A DNA stretch of 64,000 nucleotides from Burkholderia cepacia (GTDB lineage Bacteria; Pseudomonadota; Gammaproteobacteria; Burkholderiales; Burkholderiaceae), in assembly GCF_001039005.1 (NCBI RefSeq), contig NZ_LDWR01000025.1:1-64000 (forward strand), read 5' to 3'. The translations under genes were made by a program, and so were the position numbers. The notes under the pieces were generated by a model. That model was not told the DNA's origin. It did not search any database and saw nothing but the letters and a program-made list of their open reading frames with translations. Shown piece after piece: positions 7,455 through 24,640 of this stretch (the first letter of the stretch is position 1; each line of letters begins with the position of its first letter).

Positions 7455-8323
7455 GCCAGTGCTCCACTGAGTCGAAGATTGTTCGCGAGCGCGAGCGTCA
7501 CGCGCGCGTTGGCGATCAGCGGCGGCGCGACCACGCGGCCGTCCGGCAGCACGAACACCGACGACGCCGAGGCCTTGCCGGCCGCCGCATCGACCGCCTC
7601 GAGCACGCGCTCGGCCGCGCGGATCTCGTCCTCCGACGGCGTGAACACCTCGTTGATCACCGCGAGCTGCGACGGATGGATCGCGAAGCGCCCGAGGAAC
7701 CCCATCGATTTCGCGCGCAGCGTCGATTCCTTCAGCCCGTCGAGATCGGGCAGCGTGTGATAGACCGTCTGGATCGGGCCGCTCAATCCCGCCGCGCGCG
7801 ACACGACCACGCAGCGCGCGCGGCACACCTCGAGCGTGAAGTTGTCGACGCCGATCTGCAGGTCCGCACGCAGGTCGCTTTCGCCGAGCCCGATCCGTTC
7901 GAGCCGCGGCGACGCGGTCGCGAGCTGGTAAGCCGTCTCGACGCCGTACGCCGACTCGATCAGGATCTGGATGCCCGCGTCGCAGCCGAGCGCGTCGAGC
8001 CAGCCCGCGACCTCCTGGATATGCTGCGGCAGGTCGCATTTCGGCAGGCGCAGCGCCTGCAGCGCCGGCTGCGCGATCGCGTCGACGTCGTCGCGGCACC
8101 AAGGGCTGCCGATCGGGTTGATCCGCACGTAGGTCGGCTTCGGCGGGCCTTCCGCGAGAATCGCGGCGGCCGCCTGGCGTGCCTCGGCCTTGTGGCTGGC
8201 CGGCACGGCATCCTCGAGGTCGAGCACGATGGCATCGGCTTCGCTTGCATACGCTTTTTCCACCACCTGCGCCTTGTGCGCGGGCACGTAAAGGTAACTG
8301 CGGTATGTTGCGCTGGTTTTCAT
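7451..8323 (-). CDS. CitE-like CoA ester lyase (HpcH/HpaI aldolase family)
   Basis: A 290-residue citrate lyase beta-like protein. It opens with YRSYLYVPAHKAQVVEKAY, followed by DAIVLDLEDAVPASHK and IQILIESAYGVETAYQL, and ends with FAIHPSQLAVINEVF. These are the Mg2+ and CoA-ester binding landmarks of the family. It overlaps the CaiB-type gene upstream and the MmgE/PrpD gene downstream by ATGA. The pairing with a family III CoA-transferase resembles itaconate, citramalate and mesaconate pathways, in which an activated acid is cleaved to acetyl-CoA or pyruvate-type products. Confidence 0.9.
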   Translation of the reverse strand: MKTSATYRSYLYVPAHKAQVVEKAYASEADAIVLDLEDAVPASHKAEARQAAAAILAEGPPKPTYVRINPIGSPWCRDDVDAIAQPALQALRLPKCDLPQHIQEVAGWLDALGCDAGIQILIESAYGVETAYQLATASPRLERIGLGESDLRADLQIGVDNFTLEVCRARCVVVSRAAGLSGPIQTVYHTLPDLDGLKESTLRAKSMGFLGRFAIHPSQLAVINEVFTPSEDEIRAAERVLEAVDAAAGKASASSVFVLPDGRVVAPPLIANARVTLALANNLRLSGALA

Positions 8324-9558
8324 ATCACGCCTCGTTCGGTCAAATCGGCGATCTCGCGCCGCTCCAGTCCCAATGCGCCGAATACTTCGTCGTTGTGCGT
8401 GCCGCGCGCGGGTCCTCCCCAGCGGATCGCGCCGGGCGTGTCGGACAACCGGAACGGCACGTTGTGCGTGCGGAACGCGCCGAGCTCCGCGTCGGGCACC
8501 GACACGACCGAGCCGAGTGCCGCGTACTGCGGATCGCGCAGCACGTCGGCGACGTCGTAGATCGGCGCGACCGCCGCCTGCGCGCGCTCGAATTCGGCGA
8601 TCACCTCGTCGCGCGTGCGCTGCCCGATCCAGCCGCCGACCGCCGCATCCAGCTCGTCCGCATGCTGCGCGCGCTCCGCGCCGTTCGCGAACCACGGTTC
8701 GTCGATCAGGTCCGCGCGGCCGACGAGGCGCATCACGCGCTCGGCGATGCTGTGCGCCGACGTCGACAGCGCGACCCACTTGCCGTCCGACGTGCGGTAG
8801 ACACCGCGCGGCGAGTTGTTCGGCGAACGATTGCCGGTACGCTCGGGCACCCGGCCCGTCTGGTCGTAGCTCGCGACCTGCGCGCCCATCGCGGCAAGCA
8901 TCGTCTCGATGATCGCGAGATCGACGACCTGGCCGCGCCCGGTGTGCTCGCGCGCCTTCAGCGCGGTCATGATCGCAAACGCGGCGGTCAGCCCCGCGAC
9001 CGTGTCGGCAAGCGGAAACGACGGCAGGAGCGGCGGCCCGTCCGCCTCGCCGGTGATCGACGCGAGCCCGCTCATCGCCTCGGCCAGCGTGCCGAAGCCC
9101 GGCCGGCTCGCATACGGGCCGAACTGGCCGAAGCCCGTCACCCGCACGAGCACGAGCCGCGGGTTGATCGCGGACAGCACGTCGTAACCGAGCCCCCAGC
9201 GTTCGAGCGTGCCGGGCCGGAAATTCTCGACGACCACGTCCGCCTGCGCCGCCAGTTCGCGGAAGATCCGCTGGCCGTCGGCCGTGCCGAGATTCAGCGT
9301 GACCGCCCGCTTGTTGCGCGCGAGCACCTTCCACCACAACGGCACGTCGTCGCGACGCGCGCCGTACTTGCGCGCCGGATCGCCGTCCGGATGCTCGACC
9401 TTGATCACGTCGGCGCCGTAGTCCGCGAGCATCGTCGCCGAGAGCGGGCCCGCGAACAGCGTCGCGGCGTCGATCACGCGAATGCCGTCGAGCGGCGCCC
9501 GTTTGGAGGCGTCCGACGCCGCGCCGGCGTCGACGTCCCCGATTTCCACAGTGGCCAT
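8320..9558 (-). CDS. CaiB/BaiF family III CoA-transferase
   Basis: A 412-residue family III CoA-transferase, which moves CoA between carboxylates through an aspartyl-CoA intermediate. RVIDAATLFAGPLSATMLADYGADVIKVEHPDGD at about 28-61 is the diagnostic N-terminal block. NLGTADGQRIFRELAAQADVVVENFRPGTLERWGLGYD follows, with the glycine-rich and catalytic-Asp regions beyond. GGAGA sits before the ATG. It probably activates the pathway acid using succinyl-CoA or a product acyl-CoA. Confidence 0.92.
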   Translation of the reverse strand: MATVEIGDVDAGAASDASKRAPLDGIRVIDAATLFAGPLSATMLADYGADVIKVEHPDGDPARKYGARRDDVPLWWKVLARNKRAVTLNLGTADGQRIFRELAAQADVVVENFRPGTLERWGLGYDVLSAINPRLVLVRVTGFGQFGPYASRPGFGTLAEAMSGLASITGEADGPPLLPSFPLADTVAGLTAAFAIMTALKAREHTGRGQVVDLAIIETMLAAMGAQVASYDQTGRVPERTGNRSPNNSPRGVYRTSDGKWVALSTSAHSIAERVMRLVGRADLIDEPWFANGAERAQHADELDAAVGGWIGQRTRDEVIAEFERAQAAVAPIYDVADVLRDPQYAALGSVVSVPDAELGAFRTHNVPFRLSDTPGAIRWGGPARGTHNDEVFGALGLERREIADLTERGVI

Positions 9559-9660
9559 GCCGTTCTCCAGTCAAATGGATTGCACGGCGCGCCGCGCACC
9601 GACATCGTCTGCATGACTAATCAACATGCAAAGATGCGGGCGCGGCGCGCGACCTGTCGC

Positions 9661-10830
9661 TCAGACGGCGTTGATCCGGTAGATCGGGAAATACGTCTGG
9701 ATCTTCCCGTTCAGGTAGTCGGACGCGAGCTTCGGCACCTCGTCGAAATCGAAGATCTCGGTCGGCTCCTCGCCGATCCAGCCGCTCGTTTCCTGGAAGT
9801 CGCGGATCGTGATGCTGTCGTCGTAGCGCCACGCATGCGTGTGGATGTGCAGGCGGCGGTTGATGCATTCCGTCGCGCGCAGGTTCCACAGGCGCATCCC
9901 GGTCTTCCAGCCGACCGTCGTGACGATGCCGGTGCGGCCGACCACGCGCATCGTCGAGCGATACAGCGCGCCGCCGAGGTTGTCGAGGAAGATCGCGACG
10001 CCGCGGCCGCCGCTCAGTTCGGCGATCGTCTCCGCGAACACACGCTCCGACTCGCGATAGCTCGCCTGATACTCGGGATCGGTCTTGTAGCGCTCTTCGT
10101 CATACGCGAGATTCGGGAACTTGCGGCGATCGACCGGCGTGATGCCGAGCTTCGCGAGCTCCTCGAGGCGCCGGTCGTTGCTCGCCGTCATCGCGACGCG
10201 AAAGCCCTCGCGCTTCGCGAGCTGGAGTTCGGCGAGCGTCGTGCCGCCGCCCCAGCCGAACACCAGGTAGTCGGCCGGATCGACGTCCGGCAACTGCGAG
10301 CGCCAGCAGGCCGACGCCACCTTCCAGTTGTCCCACGCGGTGAAGTAGCGGCCGTACGTTGCCCATTGCAGCAGCGAATGCCGGCTGTCCGTCGGCACCG
10401 CCACGAGGTTGTCGGCGCGCATCTTGGTCCGCTGCGCCATCACGCCGATCGTGCCCGGCGCGTCGTACGCGTAGACGAGTTCGGCGAACCCGTATTCGTC
10501 GCGCTTGCCGAACGGCATCACCATGCAGATCTCGCCTTCCTTCAGCGTCTTCACGCCGCGGCCGCGCTCGACGATGCGCACCAGCGCACCGTTGCCGAGC
10601 ACGATCTTGTCCTCGCGGCGCTGCCGGCAGATGTCGACCGGATTGCGCGACAGCGCGTGGTCGAGGTTCGCTTCCCACGATCCGTACAGCGGCTCGACCA
10701 GCACCTCGTCGGCTTCCAGATCGGAGAATTCGAAGGTTTCGCGACGCAGCTCGCCCGCCACGGGCGCCTGCTTCTTGCTCGGTTCCGGTCCTGCGTAAAG
10801 AACCCATGCATCGGTCTTGATCATCGTCAT
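9661..10830 (-). CDS. MDR-superfamily zinc-binding dehydrogenase/reductase
   Basis: A 389-residue medium-chain dehydrogenase/reductase, distantly like crotonyl-CoA and acryloyl-CoA reductases. The nucleotide-binding stretch YLVFGWGGGTTLAELQLAKREGFRVAMTASNDRRLEELAKLG spans about 200-241. GRGVAIFLDNLGGALYRSTMRVVGRTGIVTTVGW spans about 286-319. No alcohol-dehydrogenase catalytic zinc cluster is evident, so an enoyl-type or quinone-type reduction is more likely than alcohol oxidation. It lies 102 bases upstream of the CoA-transferase gene in the same direction. Confidence 0.82.
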   Translation of the reverse strand: MTMIKTDAWVLYAGPEPSKKQAPVAGELRRETFEFSDLEADEVLVEPLYGSWEANLDHALSRNPVDICRQRREDKIVLGNGALVRIVERGRGVKTLKEGEICMVMPFGKRDEYGFAELVYAYDAPGTIGVMAQRTKMRADNLVAVPTDSRHSLLQWATYGRYFTAWDNWKVASACWRSQLPDVDPADYLVFGWGGGTTLAELQLAKREGFRVAMTASNDRRLEELAKLGITPVDRRKFPNLAYDEERYKTDPEYQASYRESERVFAETIAELSGGRGVAIFLDNLGGALYRSTMRVVGRTGIVTTVGWKTGMRLWNLRATECINRRLHIHTHAWRYDDSITIRDFQETSGWIGEEPTEIFDFDEVPKLASDYLNGKIQTYFPIYRINAV

Positions 10831-10882
10831 GCCTCGTTAAATGGCTCTGTATGAATGGTGCACGCCGAACACGCCGCTTCGT

Positions 10883-11470
10883 TCAGCGCGAAAACGCCTG
10901 CTCCAGTGCCGCCTCCACGTCGGCCGTCGCGGCCACCTGCCCGAGCTTCGGGAAGATCTGCGTCAGCGCGAAGGTCTGCGCGTCGGTGGACGACGTGCTG
11001 ACCGCGTCGCTGACGACGACGACGTTGTAGTTGTTCTCGTATGCCTGGCGCGCCGTCGATTCGACGCCGATGTTGGTTGCGATCCCGGTCAGCACGATGT
11101 CCGTGATGCCGCGCCGGCGCAGTTGCACGTCCAGGTCGGTGCCGGTGAACGCGCCCCACTGGTGCTTCGTCACGACGATGTCGGACGGCGCCACGCCGAG
11201 CGCCGGCGCGAACGCGCTCCATTCGGGGTCGAGATTCGGCGGCGCCGACGGCGCATCCGTCTTGACCTTCAGCGCCACGCCGCCGTCCGGCTGGTAGCTC
11301 GTGTGCACGTAGATGACGGGAAGCTGCAGCGCGCGGAACGCGGTCGCGAGCTCGACCGTCTTCGCCACGACCTGCGCGCCGGTGTACGGCACGACCGGCA
11401 GCGACACGATGCCGTTCTGCAGATCGATGGCGACCAGGGCAACCGTGCGATTGAGCGTCGGAATGGACAT
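10883..11470 (-). CDS. Isochorismatase-fold hydrolase lacking the nucleophilic Cys
   Basis: A 195-residue isochorismatase-like protein. The catalytic-Asp strand VALVAIDLQNGIV is at about 10-22 and the Lys region VVTKHQWGAFTGTDLD at about 98-113. At the usual cysteine position the sequence reads ATNIGVESTAR, with Gly where nicotinamidases and other cysteine hydrolases carry Cys. That fits the true isochorismatase-like (vinyl-ether) subgroup, or an uncharacterised activity, rather than an amidase. It sits 8 bases after the MFS gene and 52 before the MDR gene, in the same operon. Confidence 0.88.
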   Translation of the reverse strand: MSIPTLNRTVALVAIDLQNGIVSLPVVPYTGAQVVAKTVELATAFRALQLPVIYVHTSYQPDGGVALKVKTDAPSAPPNLDPEWSAFAPALGVAPSDIVVTKHQWGAFTGTDLDVQLRRRGITDIVLTGIATNIGVESTARQAYENNYNVVVVSDAVSTSSTDAQTFALTQIFPKLGQVAATADVEAALEQAFSR

Positions 11471-11478
11471 GTAAAACC

Positions 11479-12975
11479 TCACTTCTGTTGGGAGATGGAA
11501 GAAGCGGCGGCATCCAGGTGCCGGCTCGATGCCGCGTTGAGCAGCAGCAGCACGCTGATGACCGCCAGGACAATGGCCAGCTCGCGCAGGCCGCGATCGC
11601 TCGCCGGATGGCCGAGCGCCAGCCCGACGAGCGCAAACGACAGGCTGCCGCCGACATACTGCGCGGTGCGGTACAGCCCCGAGGCCGTGCCGATCCGGTC
11701 GTGCGGCGCGCTCTGGTAGAGCGCCGCCTGGTTGCCAAGATTGTTGAAGCCGTTCGGCACGCCGAACACGATCGACAGCAGCACGATCGACCAGACCGGC
11801 ATCGCGCTGGTGAGGAAACTCATCACGACGCTGCCGACGCACAGCATCGCGGAGCCGATGATCAGCACCGGCCGCGAGCCGTGGCGGTGCGCGAGGCGGG
11901 TCGCGAACATCGTCGCCACGGTGCCGATCCCGGCGACCGGCAGCATCACGAGGCCGGCATCGGCGGCGGACAGGTGCTTGGCTTCCTGCAGCCACATCGG
12001 CAGCGCATAGAAGATCGCGTAGAACACCGCGTAGGTGCCGACGCAGCGCAGGTACGTGCTCGTGAGGGCGCGGTTGTCGCTCAGCATGCGGATGTCGATC
12101 AGCGGCGTCGCGGCCCGTCGCTCGCGCCCGACCAGCATCGGGCACAGAACCAGCGTCGCGACCAGCAGCAGCCAGTCGGGCTCGTGCGATACCGATTGCA
12201 GGAACAGCAGCAGGCTCGCGAGCGTCAGGACGAACAGCGCGACGCCCGGCAGGTCCAGTTCCTTCAGCGTGCTCCGCAGCGTGCGGCGCTCCTGCGCGCC
12301 GCGCGGGACGACGTCGGCCGGAATCCACAGCCATGCCAGCACGAAGGCCAGCAGCACGATCGGCACGTTGATCCAGAAGATCGCGCGCCAGCCGGCGAAT
12401 TGCACGAGCGCGCCGCCGAGCGGCGGCCCGAACGCGACGGCCACCTGCGCCGCGACCGAGATCGCACCGAGGCCGCCCGTCGGCGTCGCGCCGTTCGCGT
12501 GCCGCTGCGACCACGTGCGGATCATCGCCATGCCGGCCGGATACGCGGCGGACGTGCCGATGCCGAGCGCGACGCGCGATGCGATCAGCCACCCGAGCGA
12601 CGGCGCGAACGGCGCGAGCGCGGACGCGATCAATACGATCGCGAGGCCGATGCAGAAGATCCTCTTCGCACCGAACCGGTCGGCGAGTCGCCCCATCGTC
12701 GGCTGGCCGACGGCCGTCGCGAGATAAAGGCCCGACACGAGCCACATCGTGTCGATGCGTTCATGCCCCTGCGGGTTGAACGCCTGCTGGATGCTGACGA
12801 GCGCGACCGCGATCATCGACGAGTTCAGCGCGTTGAGCAGCGTCCCGAGCACGATCGGGCCCACCAGCCGGGACGGCAGGCTCAGGCCCGCCGCGCGCGC
12901 ATTGCCTCCGCCTGCCGGCGTGACGCCGGGGCGCGGGGGTGACGCTTCCGCAGGTCGATCGGGAGTCGTTTTCAT
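11479..12975 (-). CDS. MFS transporter, DHA2/EmrB-QacA type
   Basis: A 498-residue major-facilitator protein with about 14 predicted membrane segments. The motif GRLADRFGAKRIF at about 94-106 is the loop 2-3 signature, and ALGIGTSAAYPAGMAMIRTW resembles the motif C region of drug/H+ antiporters. It is the first gene of the minus-strand operon. In this context it may export or import the pathway substrate or a toxic intermediate rather than drugs. Confidence 0.9.
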   Translation of the reverse strand: MKTTPDRPAEASPPRPGVTPAGGGNARAAGLSLPSRLVGPIVLGTLLNALNSSMIAVALVSIQQAFNPQGHERIDTMWLVSGLYLATAVGQPTMGRLADRFGAKRIFCIGLAIVLIASALAPFAPSLGWLIASRVALGIGTSAAYPAGMAMIRTWSQRHANGATPTGGLGAISVAAQVAVAFGPPLGGALVQFAGWRAIFWINVPIVLLAFVLAWLWIPADVVPRGAQERRTLRSTLKELDLPGVALFVLTLASLLLFLQSVSHEPDWLLLVATLVLCPMLVGRERRAATPLIDIRMLSDNRALTSTYLRCVGTYAVFYAIFYALPMWLQEAKHLSAADAGLVMLPVAGIGTVATMFATRLAHRHGSRPVLIIGSAMLCVGSVVMSFLTSAMPVWSIVLLSIVFGVPNGFNNLGNQAALYQSAPHDRIGTASGLYRTAQYVGGSLSFALVGLALGHPASDRGLRELAIVLAVISVLLLLNAASSRHLDAAASSISQQK

Positions 12976-13362
12976 GGCATCGTCGAGTGGTGGATTCGCT
13001 TCGTTCGAGCAAATTCGAACGTGCGTTCACCTTACCGGGACGATTGCCGTGAATGAAATGGATTGTTGCGATGCACACATTCGTCGCTTGAATGCAGATC
13101 GCGAGCCGGATGCGCAAAAGCGGCCCCGGCAGGCCGGAAATGACGACGACAAACTCGCCGCGCCCCTTGCCGGACGGCCCTATCCCGGGAGCGCGACGGA
13201 TCTTGCCGAATACATACGAAATGATTCGCCCTGCGCGCTTCCACCGGCTGATGACCGTTTTATGCGGCAGTGCGGCGAGAATTCAGAGCGGTCGCTCTAG
13301 ACCGGCACGATGAATGGCATATCGCTACGCGGGGTTGAGCCGCCGGGTGGCGACCTGCACGC
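12976..13362. other. Intergenic region with promoter of the CoA-ester operon
   Basis: 387 bases without a convincing gene. The stretch next to the MFS gene carries the inverted repeat at 13002-13021. The rest, between it and the end of the hutC-like gene at 13363, shows only short out-of-frame openings with no recognisable product. A small palindrome AGAGCG-gt-CGCTCT lies at 13285-13298. Confidence 0.6.
13002..13021. promoter_or_regulatory. Inverted repeat, candidate operator of the MFS-led operon
   Basis: CGTTCGA-N6-TCGAACG, perfect 7-bp arms, 27 bases upstream of the MFS start codon on the minus strand. The position suits a repressor or LysR site over the operon promoter. Which regulator binds is unknown; the LysR gene at 3736-4677 is the nearest candidate. 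Confidence 0.5.
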
Positions 13363-14118
13363 TCACACCTTCCCCGCCAGATGAAACCGCGATGCCGGAT
13401 GCCACAAGCGCACCGACGTCGCGACATGCTCGCCGACCCACGTGCGGCGCCTCAATAACAGACACGGCTCGCCGATTTCCATCACGAGGTGGCGGCGCAC
13501 CTGCGCGTCGGGCTTCTGCGCGTAGATCCGGAACTCCGCGCGCTGGATCGGCGCAAGCCGCACCATGTAGTGATTCGGCGTCTCGACCGTGAAGTCCTGT
13601 TCCAGATACGCGGGAAACAACGCCGGATTGACGTAGCGATCCTCGAACTGGATCGGCTCCTCTTCCTCGTAATGCACGATGCGCGAATGGAACACGGGCC
13701 CTGAACGCAGCCCGAGCGCTTCGACCGCCTCCTGATCGTCGCTGCTTTCGATCAGCAATACGCGAGCGCTGTGCCGATGGCCGCGCTCCGCGATCTCGTC
13801 CGCGATGTTGCGGATTTCCAGCACCGTCGATTCGTAGTGCCGCCGTTCGACGAACGTGCCGGCGCCCTGGATCCGGGTCAGCACGCGCTCGGCGGTCAGC
13901 TCGCGCAGCGCGCGCGACACCGTCATCCGCGCGACGCCGAACTCCTTGACCAGCTCGGCCTCGGTCGGAATCGCGCCGCCGGGCTTCCAGTCGCCGTTCG
14001 CGATCCGTTCGACGACGTAGCGCTTGATCTGCTGGTAGGCCGGCAACGCGCGCGCCGGCACGTCGTCGCCCGGTGCGCTCGCCTGCCGGCCGGCGAGTTG
14101 TCGTTCCGCTTCGTTCAT
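13363..14118 (-). CDS. hutC: GntR-family repressor, HutC subfamily
   Basis: A 251-residue GntR/HutC regulator. The winged helix at about 28-90 includes GAIPTEAELVKEFGVARMTVSRALRELTAERVLTRIQGAGTFV, the classic GntR HTH. The UTRA ligand-binding domain fills the rest (HYESTVLEIRNIADEIAERGHRHSARVL). HutC proteins of this length repress histidine-utilisation genes and are released by urocanate. It is the last gene of the operon SBP-permeases-ATPase-HutH-HutC. An operator matching the subfamily consensus lies upstream of the first gene. The true ligand is uncertain because the adjacent HutH homologue is atypical. Confidence 0.88.
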   Translation of the reverse strand: MNEAERQLAGRQASAPGDDVPARALPAYQQIKRYVVERIANGDWKPGGAIPTEAELVKEFGVARMTVSRALRELTAERVLTRIQGAGTFVERRHYESTVLEIRNIADEIAERGHRHSARVLLIESSDDQEAVEALGLRSGPVFHSRIVHYEEEEPIQFEDRYVNPALFPAYLEQDFTVETPNHYMVRLAPIQRAEFRIYAQKPDAQVRRHLVMEIGEPCLLLRRRTWVGEHVATSVRLWHPASRFHLAGKV

Positions 14119-14189
14119 GCGCCCTCGATCGAATGAATGATGGATCGCCCGCTGGCCGCCGCGATGTCACGGCGGCCGGTCTCCCGCCG

Positions 14190-15683
14190 TTACATCACCG
14201 GCGGCGGCACACCCGCGACGATGCCGGCGGCGATCGCGATGTCGTCCGCGAGCGGCCGGTCGTCCCGGTACGCCGGCACGCGTTCGCGCACATGCCGCCA
14301 CAGCGTGTCGGTGGGTGCGGCCCGCGACGCGCTGCCCGCCTGCAGATCGTAGGCCTGCGCGGCGGCCAGCAGCTCGATCGCCAGCACGCGCGTCGTGTTC
14401 TCGATGATGTCGAGTGCCTTCAGCGCGGCCGGCGTCGCATGGCACAGATGGTCTTCCTGCAGGCCCGACGTGATGCCGCCGTCGAGGCTCGCCGGCCCCG
14501 CGAGCCGCTGGTTCTGCGCGACGAGCGCGACCGCCGTGTACTGCGCGATCATGAACCCCGAACAGGTACCGCCCGGCGTCGCGAGGAATGCCGGCAGCCC
14601 GCTCACGAGCGGATTGACGAGCCGGTCGAGACGCCGTTCGGCGATCGCCGCGACCTGGGCCATCGCCGCCGCGAGACTGTCCATCGCCAGCGCGATGCCC
14701 GCGCCGACCGCATGTGCCTGCGAATGGACGGCCGGCGCGTCGCGCGTGCCGGCCACGATCGGATTGTCGGTCACCGACGCCAGTTCGCGATCGACCACCT
14801 CCGCCGTCACGTCGAACACGTCGCGTGCCGCGCCGTGCACGTGCGGAATCGTGCGCAGGCTGAGCGGATCCTGCGTATGCCGGCCGCTTGCCGCCGCGAG
14901 CATGCCGCTGTCGGCGAGCAGCGCACGCAAGCGCGCGCCGACGTGACCGATGCCGGGCGAAATCCGCAACGCAAGCGACGCCGGGTCGAATGCGGCGAGC
15001 TGCCCGCCGAGGTTCTCGAAACTCATCGCGGCGACCCAGTCGGCCCAGTCGAGCAGCCGCTCGGCGCGGGCCAGCGCGAGCGCGGCCAGCCCCGTCACGC
15101 ACGGCGTGCCGTTGACGAGGCTCAGCCCTTCCTTTGCGCCGAGCACGAGCGGTGCGCGGCCGATGCGGCGCAGTGCCTCGTCGCCGCGAATCCGCTCGCC
15201 GCGGTGGCGCGCATGGCCATGGCCGATGCAGACGAGCGCGACATGCGCCATATGCGTCAGATAGCCGACCGAGCCGTGCGCGGGCACCTCCGGCAGGCAA
15301 TCGTGTTCCAGCAACGCGACGAGCTGGTCGACGACGTCGGCGCGCACGCCGGAATGACCGTGCGCGTAGTTGTTGATTGCCGCCGCGACGATCGCGCGCG
15401 TTTCCGCCGCGCCGAGCGGTGCGCCCACGCCGACCGCGTGGCTCATCAGGATGTTGCGCGACAGCGTGCTCTGCTGCGCCGGCGACACGATCACGTTGCA
15501 CAGTGCACCGACGCCCGTGTTGACGCCATACGCGCGGATGCCGCGCGCGACGATTTCATCGACGAGCTCGCGGGCCGCGACGACGCGCATGCGCGCTTCG
15601 TCGGCGAGTGCAAGCGGTTCGCCTGCGGCCACCGCCGCGATCTGCCGCCAGTCGAGCGGCCTTGCCGAACGGAATACGGTCAT
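14190..15683 (-). CDS. HutH-family protein missing the MIO-forming Ala-Ser-Gly triad
   Basis: A 497-residue homologue of histidine ammonia-lyase. Conserved blocks align along its length: YGVNTGVG (52-59), KEGLSLVNGT (184-193), QDPLSLR (271-277), TDNP (305-308), SGFMIAQ (375-381) and QEDH (409-412). In canonical enzymes GSVG is followed by ASGDLAPL, whose Ala-Ser-Gly cyclises into the MIO electrophile. Here GSVG (137-140) runs directly into YLTHMAHVAL, a gap of exactly three residues, and the following Asp is Tyr. The active-site block before it is otherwise intact and the frame is open, so this is not simple decay. It starts 7 bases after the ABC ATPase gene. Ordinary MIO chemistry looks impossible; a different lyase, mutase, binding or regulatory role is likely. 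Confidence 0.9.
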   Translation of the reverse strand: MTVFRSARPLDWRQIAAVAAGEPLALADEARMRVVAARELVDEIVARGIRAYGVNTGVGALCNVIVSPAQQSTLSRNILMSHAVGVGAPLGAAETRAIVAAAINNYAHGHSGVRADVVDQLVALLEHDCLPEVPAHGSVGYLTHMAHVALVCIGHGHARHRGERIRGDEALRRIGRAPLVLGAKEGLSLVNGTPCVTGLAALALARAERLLDWADWVAAMSFENLGGQLAAFDPASLALRISPGIGHVGARLRALLADSGMLAAASGRHTQDPLSLRTIPHVHGAARDVFDVTAEVVDRELASVTDNPIVAGTRDAPAVHSQAHAVGAGIALAMDSLAAAMAQVAAIAERRLDRLVNPLVSGLPAFLATPGGTCSGFMIAQYTAVALVAQNQRLAGPASLDGGITSGLQEDHLCHATPAALKALDIIENTTRVLAIELLAAAQAYDLQAGSASRAAPTDTLWRHVRERVPAYRDDRPLADDIAIAAGIVAGVPPPVM

Positions 15684-15690
15684 GGCGGCC

Positions 15691-16482
15691 TCAGTTCGCG
15701 GAACGGTCGTGATGGCTCGATACGAACTGTCGGAAGCGCTCCGAGCACTGGCCGCCGAACAGGTCGCCGGGCGTGCCGTCCGAATCGACCTCGCCCTGAT
15801 GCAGGAACATCACGCGGTTCGACACGTGACGCGCAAAACCCATCTCGTGCGTGACGACCAGCATCGTGCGCCCTTCCTCCGCGAGCGAGCGCATCACGCG
15901 CAGCACTTCGCCGACCAGCTCCGGATCGAGCGCCGACGTCGGTTCGTCGAACAGCATCACCTTCGGATGCATCGCGAGCGCACGGGCGATCGCGACGCGT
16001 TGCTGCTGGCCACCCGACAGGTGCGCCGGATAGTAGTCGCGCTTGTCCGCGAGGCCGACGCGCGCGAGCAGCGCCTCGGCCTCCTCGACCGCTTCCGCGC
16101 GGCTGCGCTTCTGCACGCGCAGCGGCCCTTCGACGAGGTTGTCGAGCACCGTCATGTGCGACCACAGGTTGAAGTTCTGGAACACCATCCCGAGCTGCGA
16201 ACGGATCCGGTCGACCTGACGCCGGTCGCCCGGCTGCAGCTTGCCGTCGCGCGCACGCTTCATCTTCAGTTCCTCGCCGGCGAGCGCGACGGTGCCGTCG
16301 TCGGGCGTCTCGAGCAGGTTCAGGCAGCGCAGGAACGTGCTCTTTCCCGAGCCGCTCGCGCCGAGGATCGAGATCACGTCGCCTTCGTGCGCATCGAGCG
16401 AAATGCCCTTCAGCACATGGTGATCGCCGAACGACTTGTGGATGTTCCTGACCGACAGGGCAACGGGAGCAGCGGTGTTCAT
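15691..16482 (-). CDS. Polar amino-acid ABC importer, ATP-binding subunit (HisP-like)
   Basis: A 263-residue ABC ATPase. Walker [10 protein letters not shown] is at about 35-43, the Q-loop in [13 protein letters not shown], the signature LSGGQQQR at about 157-164, Walker [15 protein letters not shown] and the H-loop VTHEMGF. The opening [28 protein letters not shown] is typical of HisP/GlnQ proteins. It powers the two permeases encoded just upstream. The gene lies between the permeases and the HutH homologue in one operon. Confidence 0.95.
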
Positions 16483-16509
16483 CGGATTCTCCGGGAAAGA
16501 GGGATGCGC

Positions 16510-17256
16510 TCAGGACGCGACGCGCCGGGCGTTGCGCGCGGCGGCGGCCGCCTTGCCGGCCGGCTTCGGCGCGCGCAGGTGGCCCGACAACCGCCATTCG
16601 AGCGCGCCGAGCACGCGCACGACGATGAAGTTCAGGCCGAGGTAGATGAGGGCCGCGCACACGAACACCTCGGTCGTCCGGTAGGTCTGCTGGATGATCT
16701 GCTGCGCGACGCCCGTCACTTCCCACACCGTGACGAGGCTGGCCAGCGCGGTCGACTTGACGAGCAGCACGGCTTCGGTCGAGTACGCAGGCAGGCACTG
16801 ACGCAATGCGATCGGGCCGATCACGCGCCGCAGCAGCGCGAAGCCCGACAGGCCGATCGAATAACCGGCCTCGATCTGCCCGACCGGCACGGCCATCAGT
16901 CCGCCGCGCAGAATCTCGGCCGTGTAGCCGGCGGTACACAACGCCAGCGACAGCACCGCGCACACATACGGTTCGCGCAGCAGCGGCCACACGAAGCTCT
17001 CGCGAATCACGCCGAACTGGCCGAGCCCGTAGTACACGAGGAACATCTGGATCAGCAGCGGCGACCCGCGAAACACGAGGATGTATGCGCGTGCGAAGCG
17101 GTTCGGCAGCCAGCGCGGCGACACGCGCATCGTGACGATCACGAGCGACAGCAGGCCGCCGAGCACGAGCGACGCGAAGAACAGGCCGAGCGTGGTCGGC
17201 ACGGCCGCGAGCAACTGGCGCAGCGTGTCGATGAGGAAGGCGAAATCGATGGACAT
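16510..17256 (-). CDS. Polar amino-acid ABC importer, permease (HisM-like)
   Basis: A 248-residue inner-membrane permease of the His/Glu/Gln/Arg family with about five membrane segments. The EAA-type cytoplasmic loop GQIEAGYSIGLSGFALLRRVIGPIALRQCLPAY sits at about 141-174 and contacts the ATPase. Together with the next gene it forms the heterodimeric channel of the importer. Confidence 0.94.
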   Translation of the reverse strand: MSIDFAFLIDTLRQLLAAVPTTLGLFFASLVLGGLLSLVIVTMRVSPRWLPNRFARAYILVFRGSPLLIQMFLVYYGLGQFGVIRESFVWPLLREPYVCAVLSLALCTAGYTAEILRGGLMAVPVGQIEAGYSIGLSGFALLRRVIGPIALRQCLPAYSTEAVLLVKSTALASLVTVWEVTGVAQQIIQQTYRTTEVFVCAALIYLGLNFIVVRVLGALEWRLSGHLRAPKPAGKAAAAARNARRVAS

Positions 17257-17268
17257 GCGTGCTCTCCG

Positions 17269-17991
17269 TCAGTTGCGCGCGAAATTGCGGCGGAACGAGC
17301 GGCCCACGATCGCTTCCGCCCGGTTGAACACGCGGTTCGACAGGCCCGTCATCACGAGGTAGAGCGCGCCGCCCGCGACGAAGAACACGAAGTACTGGTG
17401 CGTCGAGTTCGCGGCGATCTGGCTCGTGCGCAGCAGCTCGGCGAGCCCGGCGACCGAGATCAGCGCCGAGTCCTTTAAGCTCAGTTGCCACACGTTGCCG
17501 ATGCCGGGCAGCGCAAAGCGCAGCACCTGCGGAATCAGGATGCGGCGCAGCACCATGCTGCGCGGCATGCCGATCGAGCGGGCCGCTTCGAGTTCTCCCT
17601 TCGACACGGCCAGCACGGCCGCGCGGTAGACCTCCGCCTGATACGCGCCGGAAATCATCCCGACCGCCAGCGCGCCAATCACGAACGGCGGCACGCCGAT
17701 GAAGCCTTCCGCGCCGAACCACTGGCCGATGGTCGTCACGAGCGTCGAGCCGCCGAAATAGAACAGGTAGATGACGAGCAGTTCGGGCACGCCGCGAAAC
17801 ACCGTCGTGTAGAGGTCGCCGAGCAGGCGGGCGCTGCGGTGGCGCGACAGTTTCGCGGCGGCGATCGCCGCGCCGATCACGGCGCCGACAGCAAGCGCGG
17901 CGAGCGTCAGCGCGACCGTCATCAGCGCGGCGAGCAGCAGCACACCGCCCCAGCCTTCGGTTCCGAAGCCCAGCATTTCAAGGATCGCCAT
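17269..17991 (-). CDS. Polar amino-acid ABC importer, permease (HisQ-like)
   Basis: A 240-residue permease with about five membrane helices. The EAA loop KGELEAARSIGMPRSMVLRRILIPQVLRFALPGIGN is at about 131-166. It lies 12 bases upstream of the HisM-like gene and about 100 bases after the binding-protein gene. The HisQ/HisM pair with a periplasmic binding protein indicates uptake of a basic or imidazole amino acid. Confidence 0.94.
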   Translation of the reverse strand: MAILEMLGFGTEGWGGVLLLAALMTVALTLAALAVGAVIGAAIAAAKLSRHRSARLLGDLYTTVFRGVPELLVIYLFYFGGSTLVTTIGQWFGAEGFIGVPPFVIGALAVGMISGAYQAEVYRAAVLAVSKGELEAARSIGMPRSMVLRRILIPQVLRFALPGIGNVWQLSLKDSALISVAGLAELLRTSQIAANSTHQYFVFFVAGGALYLVMTGLSNRVFNRAEAIVGRSFRRNFARN

Positions 17992-18092
17992 GCGTGCCTC
18001 CCGGCAAGCGTTGAATGGATCGACAGGATGCGTGCCGCCGCGCGTCGCGGTGTCGTTGCGTGTCGCTTACACGGCGGCTGCCGGACGTGCGC

Positions 18093-18953
18093 TTACGGCG
18101 TGACGTCGGTCTTGAACCACTTGTCTGCGAGTTTCTTCACGGTGCCGTCCGCGAGCGCCGCGCCGATCGCCGCATCGAACTTCGTCTTCAGGTCGGCGTC
18201 CTGCTTGCGAAACGCAAGACCTTCGCCCGGCCCCCAGATCGGCCCGCCGAGCTTCGGGCCCGCAAGCACGATCGACGCGTTTTCCTTTTTCTCGATGTTC
18301 GCCGCGTAGTACGTGACGTCGTCGAACGACGCATCGATGCGACCGGCGACGAGGTCGAGATCGCGCTCGGGCGAAGTCTTGTACACGCGGATCGACGCGA
18401 TGTCCTTGAAGCTGTCGTTGATGAATTTCGTATAGACGGTGCCCGACTGGATACCGATCGTCTTGCCCTTCAGCTGCTTGCGCAGCACGTCGACGGTCGG
18501 CTTGTCGGCGTTCGCGTCGCCGGTCAGCTTGACGGCCGGCGCGCCGGGCGCGGCCTTCGGAATGATCTTCGTGTCGGTGACGGCGAACGTCGCCGGCGTG
18601 GCCGCATAGGGGCGCGAGAACAGCAGGATCTTCTCGCGCTCCGGCGTGATCGAGATCGCATCCATCAGGACATCGAACTTGCCGGCCTGCAGGCCGGGGA
18701 TCATCCCGTCCCAGTCCTGCGCGACCATGTTGCACTGAACCTTGATCCGGCCGCAGACATTCGCGAGCAGTTCCGGCTCGAAGCCGCCGAGCTTGCCGCC
18801 CGGCAGCGTGAGGTTCCACGGTGCGTAGCCGCCTTCGAGCGCCACCGTCACCGTCTTCCACTCCTTCGCCTGCACCGGCGCGGCGAGCGTTGCCGCCGCG
18901 GCCGCGATGACGCCGATCGTCTTGACTGCCCACTTGATGCGCTTGCCGTTCAC
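18093..18953 (-). CDS. Periplasmic amino-acid-binding protein (HisJ/ArgT-like)
   Basis: A 286-residue family 3 solute-binding protein. The GTG at 18951-18953 is chosen as start because AGGAGA lies 6 bases upstream; the longer in-frame ATG starts have no such site. The signal peptide ends at AAPVQA, about residue 29. GGYAPWNLTLPGGKLGGFEPELLANVCGRIKVQCNMV and DWDGMIPGLQAGKFDVLMDAISITPEREK are the classic ligand-cleft blocks, with the Cys pair of the HisJ/LAO group. It is the first gene of the importer/HutH/HutC operon and probably captures histidine or a related amine acid. Confidence 0.93.
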   Translation of the reverse strand: MNGKRIKWAVKTIGVIAAAAATLAAPVQAKEWKTVTVALEGGYAPWNLTLPGGKLGGFEPELLANVCGRIKVQCNMVAQDWDGMIPGLQAGKFDVLMDAISITPEREKILLFSRPYAATPATFAVTDTKIIPKAAPGAPAVKLTGDANADKPTVDVLRKQLKGKTIGIQSGTVYTKFINDSFKDIASIRVYKTSPERDLDLVAGRIDASFDDVTYYAANIEKKENASIVLAGPKLGGPIWGPGEGLAFRKQDADLKTKFDAAIGAALADGTVKKLADKWFKTDVTP

Positions 18954-19289
18954 GAGATTTCTCCTTGCGTTGAAGTTCGTCATCCCTTCGGTCATGCAAG
19001 CCGCCTCAGGAATTTGTCTATACAAGCATGCAAGAAGAAAAACGGCAGGACAAGCGTCGACAATAAAAATCGACGCAAACGCGGGAAATCCCTTAATTAC
19101 AGGCCTCCGGCGTGCCTCGTTGCGGGGAATCCGGGCACGAATTTGGTGCAACAGACCTAGACGAATCGCAAGGATGACTAGACAAATTTCGAATTGGATT
19201 ATTGCGCGCTTGCCACGCGACATGCGGAGACAGGCCTGTCGGGCTGACCGGCATTGCGTCTGCGGATTGGATATCCGGTCCATGCGCGA
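18954..19289. other. Leader of the hut-like operon
   Basis: About 340 bases with no gene, comparatively AT-rich near 19,000-19,100. It carries the HutC-type site at 19014-19025. A second imperfect match, GACTAGAC, lies at about 19174-19181. Confidence 0.55.
19014..19025. promoter_or_regulatory. HutC-type operator
   Basis: TTGTCTATACAA contains GTCTATAC, which fits the HutC-subfamily operator consensus GT-M-TA-K-AC on both strands. It lies about 60 bases upstream of the GTG start of the binding-protein gene, where a repressor would block the operon promoter. The operon ends in a HutC-like gene, so autoregulation of the whole unit is the simplest reading. Confidence 0.65.
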
Positions 19290-19532: not shown

Positions 19533-20531
19533 TCACACCGACGCCACCAGCGCGTTGAACGACGTATCCCACAGCGGCGCGACATTGGCCGGCCCGTCCA
19601 GCACGCCGATCCGGGCGAACACGTCCGCGACCTGCTGATGCTGCGCAACCACGTCGGGCGTCACCGGCAGCAGCGCATAGTCTTCGCTGCGCTGCTCGAA
19701 CATCGCGACGAGATCGGCAACCGGCACGCGCGTCTCGCGGTTCTGCACGAGCGCATAGTCATGAAAATGCCCGTTCGCCCACGCATACGCACGCCGGAAC
19801 CGCAGCAACAGATCGCCGGTCGCCGCACGACGACGCGCATCGTCGAGCGTGCGGGGATTCGCGTAGACCGGGAAATTTCCCGACAGATAACCCTTCCCCG
19901 TCTTCAGCACCCGCGCGCCGTAGCGATTGCGCGCGAGCTGGCCGTTGTAGCCGTAGATCGCCCATGCGTCGATGTCGCCGCGGTCGTACGCGGATAACCC
20001 GTCGGTGGGCGACAGGTTGATCGGCTGGATGTCGTCGAAGCTCAGGCCCGCCTCCGCAAGCTGGCGATACAGGAAATAGTGCGACGTCGTCGCGCGCACG
20101 TAGCCGACGCGCTTGCCCTTCAGGTCCGCGATGCTGCGGATCGGCGTGTCCTTGCGCGCCAGCGTGACCTGGTTGTTCAGGTCTTCGCGGGCACGGGAGA
20201 TGAACCGGACATTCGCTTTCTGGCGCGCGGCGAACACGGCCGGAATCTCGCTGCCCGAGCCGATATCGAGCGCATCCGCATTGAGCGCCTCGATGTGCAG
20301 CACGCCGTTGTTCAGTTCGCGCCAGTCGATCCGGTATGGCGTGTCGCCGAGCCCGGCCGCCTGCAGCAGCGCGCGCCAGCCGCCCTTGTAGGTCGCGACG
20401 CGCAACGTCGTGCCGGCAAGATCGGCGTTGATGGCGGGCGCGGCAAACGCGGCCCGCATGGCCGCGGGGGTCGACACGACGGCGGCGCCGGCGAGCAGCA
20501 GGCGGCGGCGTGCCGCCGAAATTGACGACAT
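19533..20531 (-). CDS. SsuA/TauA-like sulfonate-binding protein
   Basis: A 332-residue periplasmic binding protein of the aliphatic sulfonate/nitrate/taurine group. AGGAG lies 7 bases before the chosen ATG. The signal region ARRRLLLAGAAVVSTPAAMRAAFA has a twin-arginine-like start. LRVATYKGGWRALLQAAGLGD, DALDIGSGSEIPAVFAARQ and LKGKRVGYVRATTSHYFLYRQLAEAGLSFDDI are typical of SsuA proteins. No permease or ATPase gene lies beside it, so it must use a transporter encoded elsewhere or be an orphan paralogue. It fits the organosulfur theme of the following 10 kb. Confidence 0.88.
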   Translation of the reverse strand: MSSISAARRRLLLAGAAVVSTPAAMRAAFAAPAINADLAGTTLRVATYKGGWRALLQAAGLGDTPYRIDWRELNNGVLHIEALNADALDIGSGSEIPAVFAARQKANVRFISRAREDLNNQVTLARKDTPIRSIADLKGKRVGYVRATTSHYFLYRQLAEAGLSFDDIQPINLSPTDGLSAYDRGDIDAWAIYGYNGQLARNRYGARVLKTGKGYLSGNFPVYANPRTLDDARRRAATGDLLLRFRRAYAWANGHFHDYALVQNRETRVPVADLVAMFEQRSEDYALLPVTPDVVAQHQQVADVFARIGVLDGPANVAPLWDTSFNALVASV

Positions 20532-20572
20532 CGGATGCTCCTGTCGATGGGATGAGAAGTTGAACCGTCGCG

Positions 20573-20917
20573 TCAATGCAGCGCCGGAAATCCGTGGCGC
20601 TCGGCCAGCAGTTCGAGGATCCGGCGCGCGTCGGTGACGAAGCGCACGTCGCTGAGCGTCTGCGCATCGTCCGGTGCCGGCTGGTCGTGGCCGAGCACGA
20701 GCACCGGCAGGCCCTGGTGCGCATCGTCGAGTGCGTCGATCACCGTATGCCGCGGCCGCTCGAACCCGACGCGCTTCACGTCGAGGCGGCCGGCGCGGTC
20801 GGGCGCGCTCGCCAGCAGTCCTTCGATCGACAGTCCGTGCGGACAGACAAAACGTTGCCCCGGATGCTTCGGATCGGCAAAGCCCGGTTCCAGCAAAAAC
20901 AGCACATCGCGACTCAT
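20573..20917 (-). CDS. DUF3088-like small protein
   Basis: A 114-residue soluble protein starting MSRDVLFLLEPGFADPKHPGQRFVCPHGLSIEGLLAS, with LPVLVLGHDQP in the middle. It resembles the DUF3088 family, whose function is unknown. The fold looks thioredoxin-like in length, with a single Cys at about residue 25. It is 41 bases upstream of the SsuA-like gene on the same strand and probably cotranscribed. Confidence 0.75.
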   Translation of the reverse strand: MSRDVLFLLEPGFADPKHPGQRFVCPHGLSIEGLLASAPDRAGRLDVKRVGFERPRHTVIDALDDAHQGLPVLVLGHDQPAPDDAQTLSDVRFVTDARRILELLAERHGFPALH

Positions 20918-21404
20918 GTCAAACGGCTCCCGTGTTCGTTGTTCAGCCGGGACGAACGCGCGCTTGCGCGCTCTCCTGTTCCCGGAGCATGCCGGCCCGC
21001 GACCGGATGCCCGACTCTACCGTCACGCCTCGCCCGGCCCTACCAACGTTTTGCGGAATCGATATGCGGGTGCGCGTAGCGCATCGGCCGTGCGCTGCAC
21101 AGCGGGTCGTTGCGTAAATGCATCGCGCACCGAACGGCATGTATTGCGCACATCGAACGATTTCACCGATCGATATGACGGCGATCGCGCATTTCCGGCG
21201 GTCGACGTTCGCCGTCGGTGCGATGCGTTCGCCGCAGCATGCGTGCCGGATGCGATGGCGACGCACATGCCGGGCTTGCGGCATCGCACATTGCAAATCG
21301 GCTGCGCATCGATTTGCAAACCACGGATCGGCCGTTCATCGGAGCGCCCGTCGTCAATAGCATCGTGATCCTCGCAGACGTACCCATAAAAACAGAGGAT
21401 GGTC
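20918..21404. other. Divergent intergenic region upstream of the porin
   Basis: About 480 bases between the DUF3088 gene (minus) and the porin gene (plus) with no credible coding sequence. It must carry both promoters. The clearest element is the 10-bp-arm inverted repeat at 21291-21319. Confidence 0.55.
21291..21319. promoter_or_regulatory. Perfect inverted repeat upstream of the porin gene
   Basis: TTGCAAATCG-N9-CGATTTGCAA, ten-base perfect arms with a nine-base spacer, 85 bases upstream of the porin start. It could be an operator for a sulfur regulator of the LysR type or a hairpin in the leader RNA. No poly-T follows, so it is not an intrinsic terminator. Confidence 0.55.
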
Positions 21405-22589
21405 ATGATCAAGAAATCGGTAGTCCTGGGTTTGGTTTCGATCGGTTCGGTCAGCGCGCATGCGCAGAGTTCGGTCACGTTGTACGGCGTCGTCGATGCC
21501 GGTATCGCCTATACGAACAACCAGGGCGGCGCCAGCAACATCCAGCAGACGAGCGGCAAGCTGAGCGGCAGCCGCTGGGGCCTGAAAGGCGCGGAAGATC
21601 TCGGCGGCGGGTTGCAGGCGGTCTTCACGCTCGAAAGCGGGTTCCGTCCGAGCGACGGCGGGCTCGGCCAGGGCGGCCGCCTGTTCGGCCGCTCCGCGTA
21701 CGTGGGCTTGAGCAAATCCGGCATCGGCACGCTGACGCTCGGCCGCCAGTACGAGCCGATCACCGATCTGGTCGCGCAGTACTCGGGGTCCGGCTTCTGG
21801 TCGCCAGCTACCCATGTGGGCGACAACGACAACATGAACCAGAGCTTCCGGCTGAACAACGCGGTGAAGTTCCGCAGCGACACGATCGCCGGCTTCACGG
21901 CCGACCTGCTCTATGCGTTCAGCAACCAGGCGAACGGCGGCGCGGGCACGGGGTTCTCGAACAACAACGCGTGGGGCGTGTCGGCGAACTACGTGAACGG
22001 CCCGCTGTCGTTCGGCGGCGGTTACGTGCGGTTCAATCATCCGAATGCGACGTCGAATACGAGCGGCGCGGTGGGCGGTGCGACCTCGACCACCGGCAAC
22101 GACTACAGCGGCGCGTTTTTCTACGGGCTGAACGGCGGCGTGCTCAAGCAGCAGATCGGCGCCCTGGGCGCGAACTACGCACTCGGCCGCGCGACGCTCG
22201 GCTTCGCGTGGAGCCACACGCAGCTCAACTATGTCGACGGCTCGTCGCGCAAGTTCAACAACTACGACGTGAACGCGCGCTACCAGATCACGCCGGCAGC
22301 CACGCTGATCGGCGTTTACACGTTCACCGACGGGCGCGCGAGCGGATTGCCGGGCACCGGCGGCCAGACGCTGAAGCCGCGCTGGCACCAGTTCACGCTC
22401 GGTTTCGACTACGCGTTGTCAAAGCGCACCGACCTCTACCTGTCCGGCATCTACCAGCTCGCGGCCGGCGACCCGAGCACGGCAACGGCCGGCGGCTATC
22501 GCGCGGTCGCGGCGATCTCGAACATCGGCAGCGCATCGTCGACGAACCGCCAGGTCGCGGTCGTCAGCGGGCTACGCGTGAAGTTCTGA
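21405..22589 (+). CDS. Outer-membrane porin
   Basis: A 394-residue trimeric porin. The ATG at 21405 is used because AGAGG lies six bases upstream; the ATG at 21399 would abut that site. Signal MIKKSVVLGLVSIGSVSAHA, then QSSVTLYGVVDAGIAY, LSGSRWGLKGAEDLGGGLQAVFTLESGF, RLFGRSAYVGL and a C-terminal LRVKF. It opens the plus-strand sulfur group and could admit small organosulfur compounds. Confidence 0.94.
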   Translation: MIKKSVVLGLVSIGSVSAHAQSSVTLYGVVDAGIAYTNNQGGASNIQQTSGKLSGSRWGLKGAEDLGGGLQAVFTLESGFRPSDGGLGQGGRLFGRSAYVGLSKSGIGTLTLGRQYEPITDLVAQYSGSGFWSPATHVGDNDNMNQSFRLNNAVKFRSDTIAGFTADLLYAFSNQANGGAGTGFSNNNAWGVSANYVNGPLSFGGGYVRFNHPNATSNTSGAVGGATSTTGNDYSGAFFYGLNGGVLKQQIGALGANYALGRATLGFAWSHTQLNYVDGSSRKFNNYDVNARYQITPAATLIGVYTFTDGRASGLPGTGGQTLKPRWHQFTLGFDYALSKRTDLYLSGIYQLAAGDPSTATAGGYRAVAAISNIGSASSTNRQVAVVSGLRVKF

Positions 22590-22721
22590 CGGCACACGCA
22601 ACGGGCGCGGCGCAACAGGCACGATAAGCAAAGCGGGAATCGTTGTTTGCCGCGTCGCGCCCGGTTGCCGAGAATGTCCGTTTCCCCGCGTGCGGCCCCT
22701 GCGCGCGATACGCGTCCGACC

Positions 22722-24513: not shown

Positions 24514-24640
24514 CGCGATGCGATCCGCTCGCCGGAACATCAGGCATCGCCCCCGGCCGAACCGCCGCCACGCGTGCGAGTCGTTGTCGTACGGCTTCGA
24601 TTACGGCTTCGATGCGTGCACACGCCGCAAGGAACCCATC

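Follow-up and report, generated by a model that had tools for sequence, protein, structure and literature searches.

A lyase of the histidine ammonia-lyase family without its cofactor triad

The window examined here, that is, the whole 64-kb stretch formed by positions 1 to 64,000 of contig NZ_LDWR01000025.1 of Burkholderia cepacia, encodes an aromatic amino acid lyase homolog from which the Ala-Ser-Gly triad that forms the 4-methylideneimidazole-5-one (MIO) cofactor is missing. Judging from its sequence and from the company that its gene keeps in related genomes, this protein is probably an MIO-independent trimethylamine-lyase, which would convert hercynine (N-alpha-trimethyl-L-histidine, or histidine betaine) into urocanate and trimethylamine. 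The gene and its distinguishing codons are located as follows.

14190..15683, minus strand: MIO-less aromatic amino acid lyase family protein, 497 residues (PF00221, 496.3 bits)
15261..15275, minus strand: codons for GSVG-Y, residues 137-141, where MIO lyases have GSVG-ASGD (translation and alignment)

The open reading frame is uninterrupted across its 497 residues. Within it, G137-S-V-G140 (DNA 15275-15264) is followed immediately by Y141-LTHMAHVALV, and in the alignment to histidine ammonia-lyases (HALs) a single Tyr, Y141, occupies the place of Ala-Ser-Gly-Asp. The first-pass annotation of this DNA had proposed a loss of exactly three residues at the MIO site together with replacement of the next Asp by Tyr, and the alignment bears this out to the residue; the family blocks that it listed as kept (YGVNTG, KEGLSLVNGT, QDPLSLR, SGFMIAQ and QEDH) are all present in an open frame.

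The protein has the Lyase_aromatic domain and fold of HutH but not the triad, and its score against the HutH equivalog model TIGR01225 (447.2 bits) lies below the cut-off of 539.15; the canonical HutH of the same genome scores 696.7. When solved structures were searched with phmmer, the top matches were histidine ammonia-lyases, namely 7tqr (285.7 bits) and the Pseudomonas putida enzyme (at most 262.3 bits), with ergothionase 6s7j ranking lower (173.8 bits). The AlphaFold2 model shows a complete lyase fold with a mean pLDDT of 91.4, the values falling below 50 at residues 405-409.

The deletion is conserved in a clade of relatives

Relatives were represented by 100 loci: the best 80 of 511 relatives in a contig search, plus 20 loci from other genomes supplied by searches of 369, 385 and 201 genomes, where two genome collections may contain some species twice. 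A 21st additional locus, L221, encodes a canonical HutH and enters none of the counts. The motif GS[V/A]G-Y is present in 80 of the best 80 loci (69 by motif, 11 by reading), and the deletion is also present in 20 of the 20 further loci. The individual searches gave the following results. First, 68 of the 369 genomes matched at E<=1e-20, and among the 30 loci returned 28 were canonical and two had the deletion, namely the window's own and that of G386. Second, the 385 genomes gave ten matches at E<=1e-90, nine with the deletion, among them G018, which the set already contained as L079, and a single one, G403, without it. Third, 17 of the 201 genomes matched at E<=1e-90, and 12 of those were read.

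Comparison of the window gene with six relatives yielded dN/dS ratios of about 0.09-0.25 (dN 0.036-0.229, dS 0.354-0.928). A pseudogene or an isolate-specific gap was ruled out on these grounds, since the deletion is shared by 100 of 100 relatives and dN/dS is low; a gap unique to the isolate, with signs of decay, was one of the outcomes that the first-pass annotation had named as fatal to its proposal, and it did not occur. Its suggested check, whether homologs lacking the triad form a conserved clade with the same importer and HutC context, came out in favor.

Active-site residues and a putative mechanism

To compare active sites we aligned 101 clade sequences (the window protein and its 100 relatives) with 66 MIO lyases, chosen for having ASGD, and with other MIO-less types, using P. 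putida HAL numbering. First, one Tyr replaces ASGD in 101 of 101 clade sequences. Second, Tyr53, His83, Asn195, Gln277, Arg283 and Glu414 are retained in all 101. Third, Tyr280 and Phe329, each invariant in the 66 MIO lyases, are replaced in the clade, the former by Leu (101/101) and the latter by Ala (85/101) or Pro (16/101). Fourth, position 386 is Tyr in every clade sequence (Y382 in the window protein), mostly Val (55/66) or Ile (8/66) in MIO lyases, and Lys in the ergothionase-type rows (5/5) and in two other MIO-less classes (5/5 each). When compared with HutH from P. putida (1b8f) and Thermoplasma acidophilum (7tqr), the window lyase therefore lacks Ala-Ser-Gly, Asp145, Phe329 and Tyr280. 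Phe329 and Asp145 of HAL matter for MIO formation, and the HAL mutants F329A, F329G and D145A are available as structures, according to the structure titles. The pattern is one in which residues that build MIO are lost and those predicted to bind and deprotonate a histidine-like substrate are retained.

MIO chemistry involves attack by the amino nitrogen of the substrate, which requires a lone pair, and a quaternary nitrogen has none. MIO would thus be useless on hercynine, and its loss would follow. In the mechanism that we propose, hercynine would be taken up by the ABC (ATP-binding cassette) importer encoded beside the lyase and would be bound in the manner in which histidine ammonia-lyase binds histidine. 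Tyr52, the equivalent of HAL Tyr53, would take the beta proton, trimethylamine would be expelled and trans-urocanate formed; the urocanate would enter the ordinary hut pathway (HutU, HutI, HutF, HutG) and may also lift repression by HutC. The replacements of ASGD by Tyr, of Phe329 by Ala or Pro and of Tyr280 by Leu would make space for the N-trimethyl group, with Tyr141 and Tyr382 as candidate cation-pi contacts.

A protein without the triad, next to a HutC gene, in genomes that also encode a canonical HutH (all 21 tested), could instead be a catalytically dead pseudo-enzyme that binds histidine or urocanate, or a regulatory partner of HutH. This option, raised in the first-pass annotation as a binding or regulatory subunit, is very improbable in view of the alignment, where the base and the substrate-binding residues of HAL are retained in 101 of 101 sequences and the MIO-specific ones are lost. 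It also fits poorly with the complete predicted fold, with the importers encoded alongside, with the presence of the lyase gene within hut catabolic operons of relatives and with the fact that a canonical HutH lies within 8.2 kb in just nine of the 100 loci.

Association with hut genes points to urocanate as the product

In the window, the lyase gene lies between the genes of an importer and that of a repressor, preceded by an operator-like site, with these features:

13363..14118, minus strand: HutC-type GntR/UTRA repressor, next gene after the lyase (TIGR02018, 283.8 bits, cut-off 220; GntR and UTRA domains)
15691..16482, minus strand: HisP-like ABC ATPase, 7 bases before the lyase (HisP, 357.7 bits, below the cut-off of 466)
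16510..17256, minus strand: ABC permease, ArtM/HisM-like (PF00528; below family cut-offs)
17269..17991, minus strand: ABC permease, HisQ-like (PF00528; below family cut-offs)
18093..18953, minus strand: periplasmic substrate-binding protein, SBP_bac_3, HisJ/ArgT-like (PF00497, 114.1 bits; longer frame 18093-19157, the start apparently being the GTG at 18953)
19013..19026, minus strand: HutC-operator-like palindrome CTTGTATAGACAAA, about 60 bp upstream of HisJ, the first importer gene (motif search)

We surveyed the neighbors of the 100 lyase loci by tblastn of labelled neighbors within 8.2 kb. A hut gene was found at 90 loci, HutC at 76 and HutU, HutI, HutF or HutG at 31. Several gene orders recur. 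In Burkholderia and Paraburkholderia the order is HisJQMP-lyase-HutC, with HutC downstream of the lyase in most loci. In L060-L066 (Caballeronia and Burkholderia sp. Leaf177) it is HisJQMP-lyase-HutU-HutD-HutI-HutF-HutG; in Kaistia (L071), HutF-HisJQMP-lyase-HutI-HutH-HutG, with HutC and HutU divergent; in L214-L216, ProXWV-lyase-HutU-HutD; and in the family of G386 mostly HutU-BCCT-lyase and then HutI or HutH.

The urocanase of the Leaf177 operon (L163) is a true HutU (939.5 bits, cut-off 375) and scores too low for the thiourocanate hydratase model (658.2 bits against 930). It is the sole urocanase of that genome (G008, L065/L163), whose HutH is on another contig. For the genomes of 21 chosen loci (out of 80), and for the window's genome, we also listed all PF00221 genes. 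A urocanase is present in 21 of the 21 chosen genomes, exactly one in 12 of them, and a canonical HutH with the ASG triad, at 602 bits or more, in 21 of 21, which argues that the lyase is not needed for plain histidine. From this context we infer that the product of the lyase is urocanate.

The substrate may nevertheless vary within the clade. The alphaproteobacterial loci L217-L220 (e.g., L217 5077-8500) have lyases without hut neighbors and a PhyH-type dioxygenase gene close by (PF05721, Pfam-checked for L217 only), directly divergent in L218 and beyond a LysR-like gene, identified by eye, in the others; in all four, CCTGTATATACAGG occurs at or just upstream of the lyase start. Such loci would suit a lyase for another histidine derivative, e.g., a ring-methylated histidine betaine, with a product that reaches HutU directly or after an extra step. 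For the clade at large we consider this a slim prospect, as the complete hut operons of L060-L066 and Kaistia L071 require no extra step.

Transporters suggest a quaternary amine

At set thresholds, the importers encoded beside the lyase in the 100 loci were HisJQMP-like in 74, BCCT in 11 and ProXWV in four, with none of these in 11. Pfam confirmed the BCCT carrier of L195 (390.9 bits) and the OpuAC proteins of L075, L158 and L227 (224.8 bits). The clearest association was obtained in the 201 genomes of the family of G386, using an ortholog threshold of E<=1e-150 with at most seven candidates per genome scored in each search. The lyase occurs in 17 of these genomes and a BCCT ortholog in 16; all 16 orthologs directly adjoin the lyase, and none was found at this threshold in the other 184 genomes. 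The 17th lyase genome (G815, L227) has an OpuAC betaine-binding protein near HutC. In hut operons with ProXWV-type importers, such as that of Sinorhizobium meliloti HutXWV, a betaine-family importer also stands by hut genes, as in L075 and L214-L216. Here, in contrast, the gene of the MIO-less lyase comes immediately after those of the importer, and a BCCT carrier or HisJQMP replaces ProXWV in other lyase lineages. Taken together, a substrate of histidine type that is a quaternary betaine as well and gives urocanate would be hercynine.

The same product logic would apply to an MIO-independent lyase acting on histidine or on N-alpha-mono- or dimethylhistidine, to give urocanate and ammonia or a methylamine, and the histidine-type importer of the 74 loci would suit it. 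A gene for an N-methyltryptophan-oxidase-like FAD enzyme, which immediately follows that of the lyase at eight rhizobial loci (L076, L078, L080-L084, L086), perhaps fits the metabolism of N-methylated histidine, and hints at a partly methylated substrate; the L081 oxidase (9472-10638) matches NF008425 at 414.2 bits (cut-off 257), this being the only one whose family was named. We regard such a lyase as unlikely, given that an MIO HutH is already present in 21 of 21 tested genomes and that the BCCT pairing indicates a quaternary amine. Moreover, PMC12535398 reports that an MIO-deficient phenylalanine ammonia-lyase mutant lost hydroamination, with two acrylates tested.

A shared operator-like site

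The palindrome at 19013-19026 is the sole site within two mismatches of CTTGTATATACAAG across the 64-kb window, and by comparison with pseudomonads it is a putative HutC operator. A site upstream of HisJ was found within two mismatches in 50 of 74 relatives and within three in 56 of 74, compared with 36 of 1480 random windows of the same loci within three mismatches, windows that may overlap real sites. L060-L063 combine a perfect palindrome in front of HisJ with a closely similar one in front of hutU, and in the window's genome two similar sites, with three mismatches each, lie just upstream of the canonical hutH (L007 10608 and 10653). The ergothionase locus of that genome (L006) had no site within three mismatches. 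There are 48 occurrences of the word TGTATATACA, spread over 29 of the 100 loci, compared with 0.0 expected from Markov simulation and none for five scrambled words. With a HutC-type repressor above its cut-off and a putative HutC-operator-like site, the window operon would belong to the hut regulon.

Comparison with ergothionase and other MIO-less lyases

Ergothionase (Treponema denticola 6s7j/6s7q; Burkholderia sp. HME13) shares the lyase fold, has no MIO and releases trimethylamine, the leaving group that we also propose for the window clade; according to PMC13405746, it is confirmed in few organisms. This precedent supports a hercynine trimethylamine-lyase, and in both enzymes the equivalents of Tyr53, Gln277, Arg283 and Glu414 are kept and Tyr280 is Leu. 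The two differ in that ergothionase keeps the Asp, with two residues ahead of it (EG-D or EA-D), where the window clade has one Tyr, retains Phe329, and has Lys at the position of Tyr382. The window lyase should work like ergothionase while failing the tests for being one: it has an MIO-less lyase fold but neither the Lys at HAL position 386, nor a place in the 6s7j clade, nor an association with thiourocanate hydratase; nor is it an MIO histidine ammonia-lyase.

The site types that we read comprise canonical ASGD; the triad-deleted GSVG-Y of the window (P0001) clade, L114 and L115/L117; and the one-residue-shorter GEA/GEG-D (6s7j, P0002, L135-L137; L138-L140), GAA-D (L130-L134) and GCA-D (L141-L145). 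The most divergent loci, L146 and L147, were excluded from trees and counts, and two short G017 fragments were not included. In a careful tree of 45 rows, from which the trait columns were removed and the GEG-D rows L138-L140 excluded, a branch with support of 100/99 sets the ergothionase-type, GAA-D and GCA-D rows apart, and the window clade (16 rows, 100/100) falls on the MIO-lyase side of it. The absence of MIO in the window clade thus looks separate from that in ergothionase, whichever state is older. The triad-deleted subgroups formed one group in the quick tree (SH-aLRT 87), a grouping found in 11% of bootstrap trees in the careful one.

The window assembly carries three PF00221 genes: the window lyase; the canonical HutH, within a hut operon on contig C126; and P0002, on contig C146, whose best structure match is ergothionase 6s7j (265.6 bits, the next being 163.3). 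P0002 belongs to an ergothioneine-type catabolic cluster (C146:38000-57999, L006, about 9305-18881) with a carrier-like gene (by eye), a thiourocanate hydratase (NF058530, 1051.9 bits, cut-off 930), an S-Me-THD-like protein and an amidohydrolase. The ergothionase role in this genome thus seems to be already taken. No urocanase was found near the window gene, the two urocanases of the genome being on C126 and C146.

Ergothionase had been our first guess for the window lyase, and was ruled out by alignment, urocanase typing and tree. An ergothionase of a second lineage, acting on ergothioneine or ergothioneine-sulfonate, is likewise very improbable: P0002 is a separate homolog near thiourocanate hydratase in the same genome, the one lyase-operon urocanase that was typed is HutU, a single urocanase is present in 12 of 21 tested genomes, and the site, the Lys and the tree (100/99) all set the two enzymes apart. 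The first-pass annotation had also suggested a new enzyme class. This is right in part: an MIO-less trimethylamine-lyase of the same fold is already known in ergothionase (PDB 6s7j), but the window clade has a different site, another place in the tree and other gene neighbors, which makes another substrate likely.

Other MIO-less lyases were also encountered. A Trinickia lyase of the L114 type (L157 5141-6703) is triad-deleted yet passes the HutH equivalog (541.8 against 539.15) and keeps Tyr280 and Phe329; that score was accordingly rejected as a marker of MIO, and automatic naming as histidine ammonia-lyase is misleading. Four lyases of the further MIO-less types (GAA-D, GCA-D and GEG-D; L130-L134, L138-L145) were scanned, and no NCBIfam cut-off was reached; in L161 (6655-14059) the gene of a GCA-D lyase is accompanied by one for a thiourocanate hydratase (1061.5 bits). 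In a Rhizobium (G018:C3, L158; 8274-13355 and 17683-19998) two different MIO-less lyases lie about 8 kb apart, each adjoining an OpuAC-type betaine-binding protein; the triad-deleted one has further neighbors in a CoA-transferase gene (PF02515) and in genes that by eye resemble those of 3-hydroxyacyl-CoA dehydrogenase and enoyl-CoA hydratase, and is possibly a lyase for another aromatic betaine.

It is tempting to speculate, on what we judge to be slightly less than an even footing, that loss of MIO marks those lyases whose substrates are quaternary (betaines). Such loss is found at more than one place in the tree of this fold, namely among the relatives of ergothionase and in a branch of triad-deleted lyases near histidine ammonia-lyase; the latter branch would consist of amino-acid-betaine trimethylamine-lyases. 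Within that branch the window clade would act on hercynine, and the rhizobial L115/L117 type, which in L158 stands beside an OpuAC-type importer, CoA-transferase and beta-oxidation-like genes, on another aromatic betaine, e.g., tryptophan or phenylalanine betaine.

Observations that weigh against hercynine, and significance

Several observations weigh against a hercynine trimethylamine-lyase. First, as to transport, the commonest importer, HisJQMP-like (74/100), suggests an amino acid rather than a betaine, and histidine can likewise be a substrate of the ProXWV-type transporters found in hut loci, as with S. meliloti HutXWV. Second, as to context, the lyase of the window has no company beyond HutC and the importer, the hut enzymes and betaine transporters being seen in relatives; 10 of 100 loci have no hut gene within 8.2 kb, eight have neither a hut gene nor a listed transporter nearby, and 18 of 74 loci, including all nine rhizobial ones (5-6 mismatches), have no operator-like site in front of HisJ. 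Third, as to mechanism, the Lys common to ergothionase and two MIO-less classes, which corresponds to Lys384 of the T. denticola enzyme and is essential there, is Tyr here, so that the ergothionase mechanism is not simply transferable. Fourth, many of the 100 loci are Burkholderiaceae near-copies, so the counts overstate independent evidence.

The proposed substrate is documented in nature. Hercynine is the precursor of ergothioneine (PMC7653990, which also covers ergothionase), was detected in nine of ten cyanobacterial strains (PMC3826126), and is among the quaternary ammonium compounds reported as abundant in soil (PMC8550315, citing Warren 2013). Depletion of histidine betaine was observed in desert soil crust, yet none of the tested isolates took it up, from which the authors inferred that other microbes use it (PMC4595634). 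No hercynine lyase was found in the open-access literature searched, subscription papers being outside that search.

If our reading is correct, the clade would supply genes, importers and a pathway for the consumption of histidine betaine in soil, and would add to the bacterial sources of trimethylamine. It would furthermore offer a simple test of why a built-in cofactor was abandoned, namely, that it is unusable on quaternary nitrogen, and would correct a histidine ammonia-lyase label. In all, 177 plasmid records match the window lyase at E<=1e-80, and among the 25 records listed 17 label it histidine ammonia-lyase, five have no feature there and three have no annotation; the two records that we read combine that label with the site GSAG-Y.

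Neighboring genes in the window

Co-directional genes after HutC (4957-12975) encode an MFS carrier, isochorismatase-like, alcohol dehydrogenase-like and CoA-transferase III proteins, a CitE-like protein (by eye), MmgE/PrpD and a cyclase. Compared with the 80 clade loci they gave a single match (the CoA-transferase, 31%, L010), the MmgE/PrpD query being mis-framed, and they are probably unrelated to the lyase. On the other side, an SsuA-like binding protein gene (19533-20576; 145.5 bits, cut-off 163.5) hinted at an ergothioneine-sulfonate lyase, a candidate that was rejected because only four of 80 loci match, at 28-30% identity and 6.4-6.6 kb off. This gene is followed on the plus strand by porin-like (by eye), molybdopterin oxidoreductase, cytochrome c and luciferase-like monooxygenase genes, and the whole region (19533-25828) looks like a sulfur/sulfonate module beside the operon.

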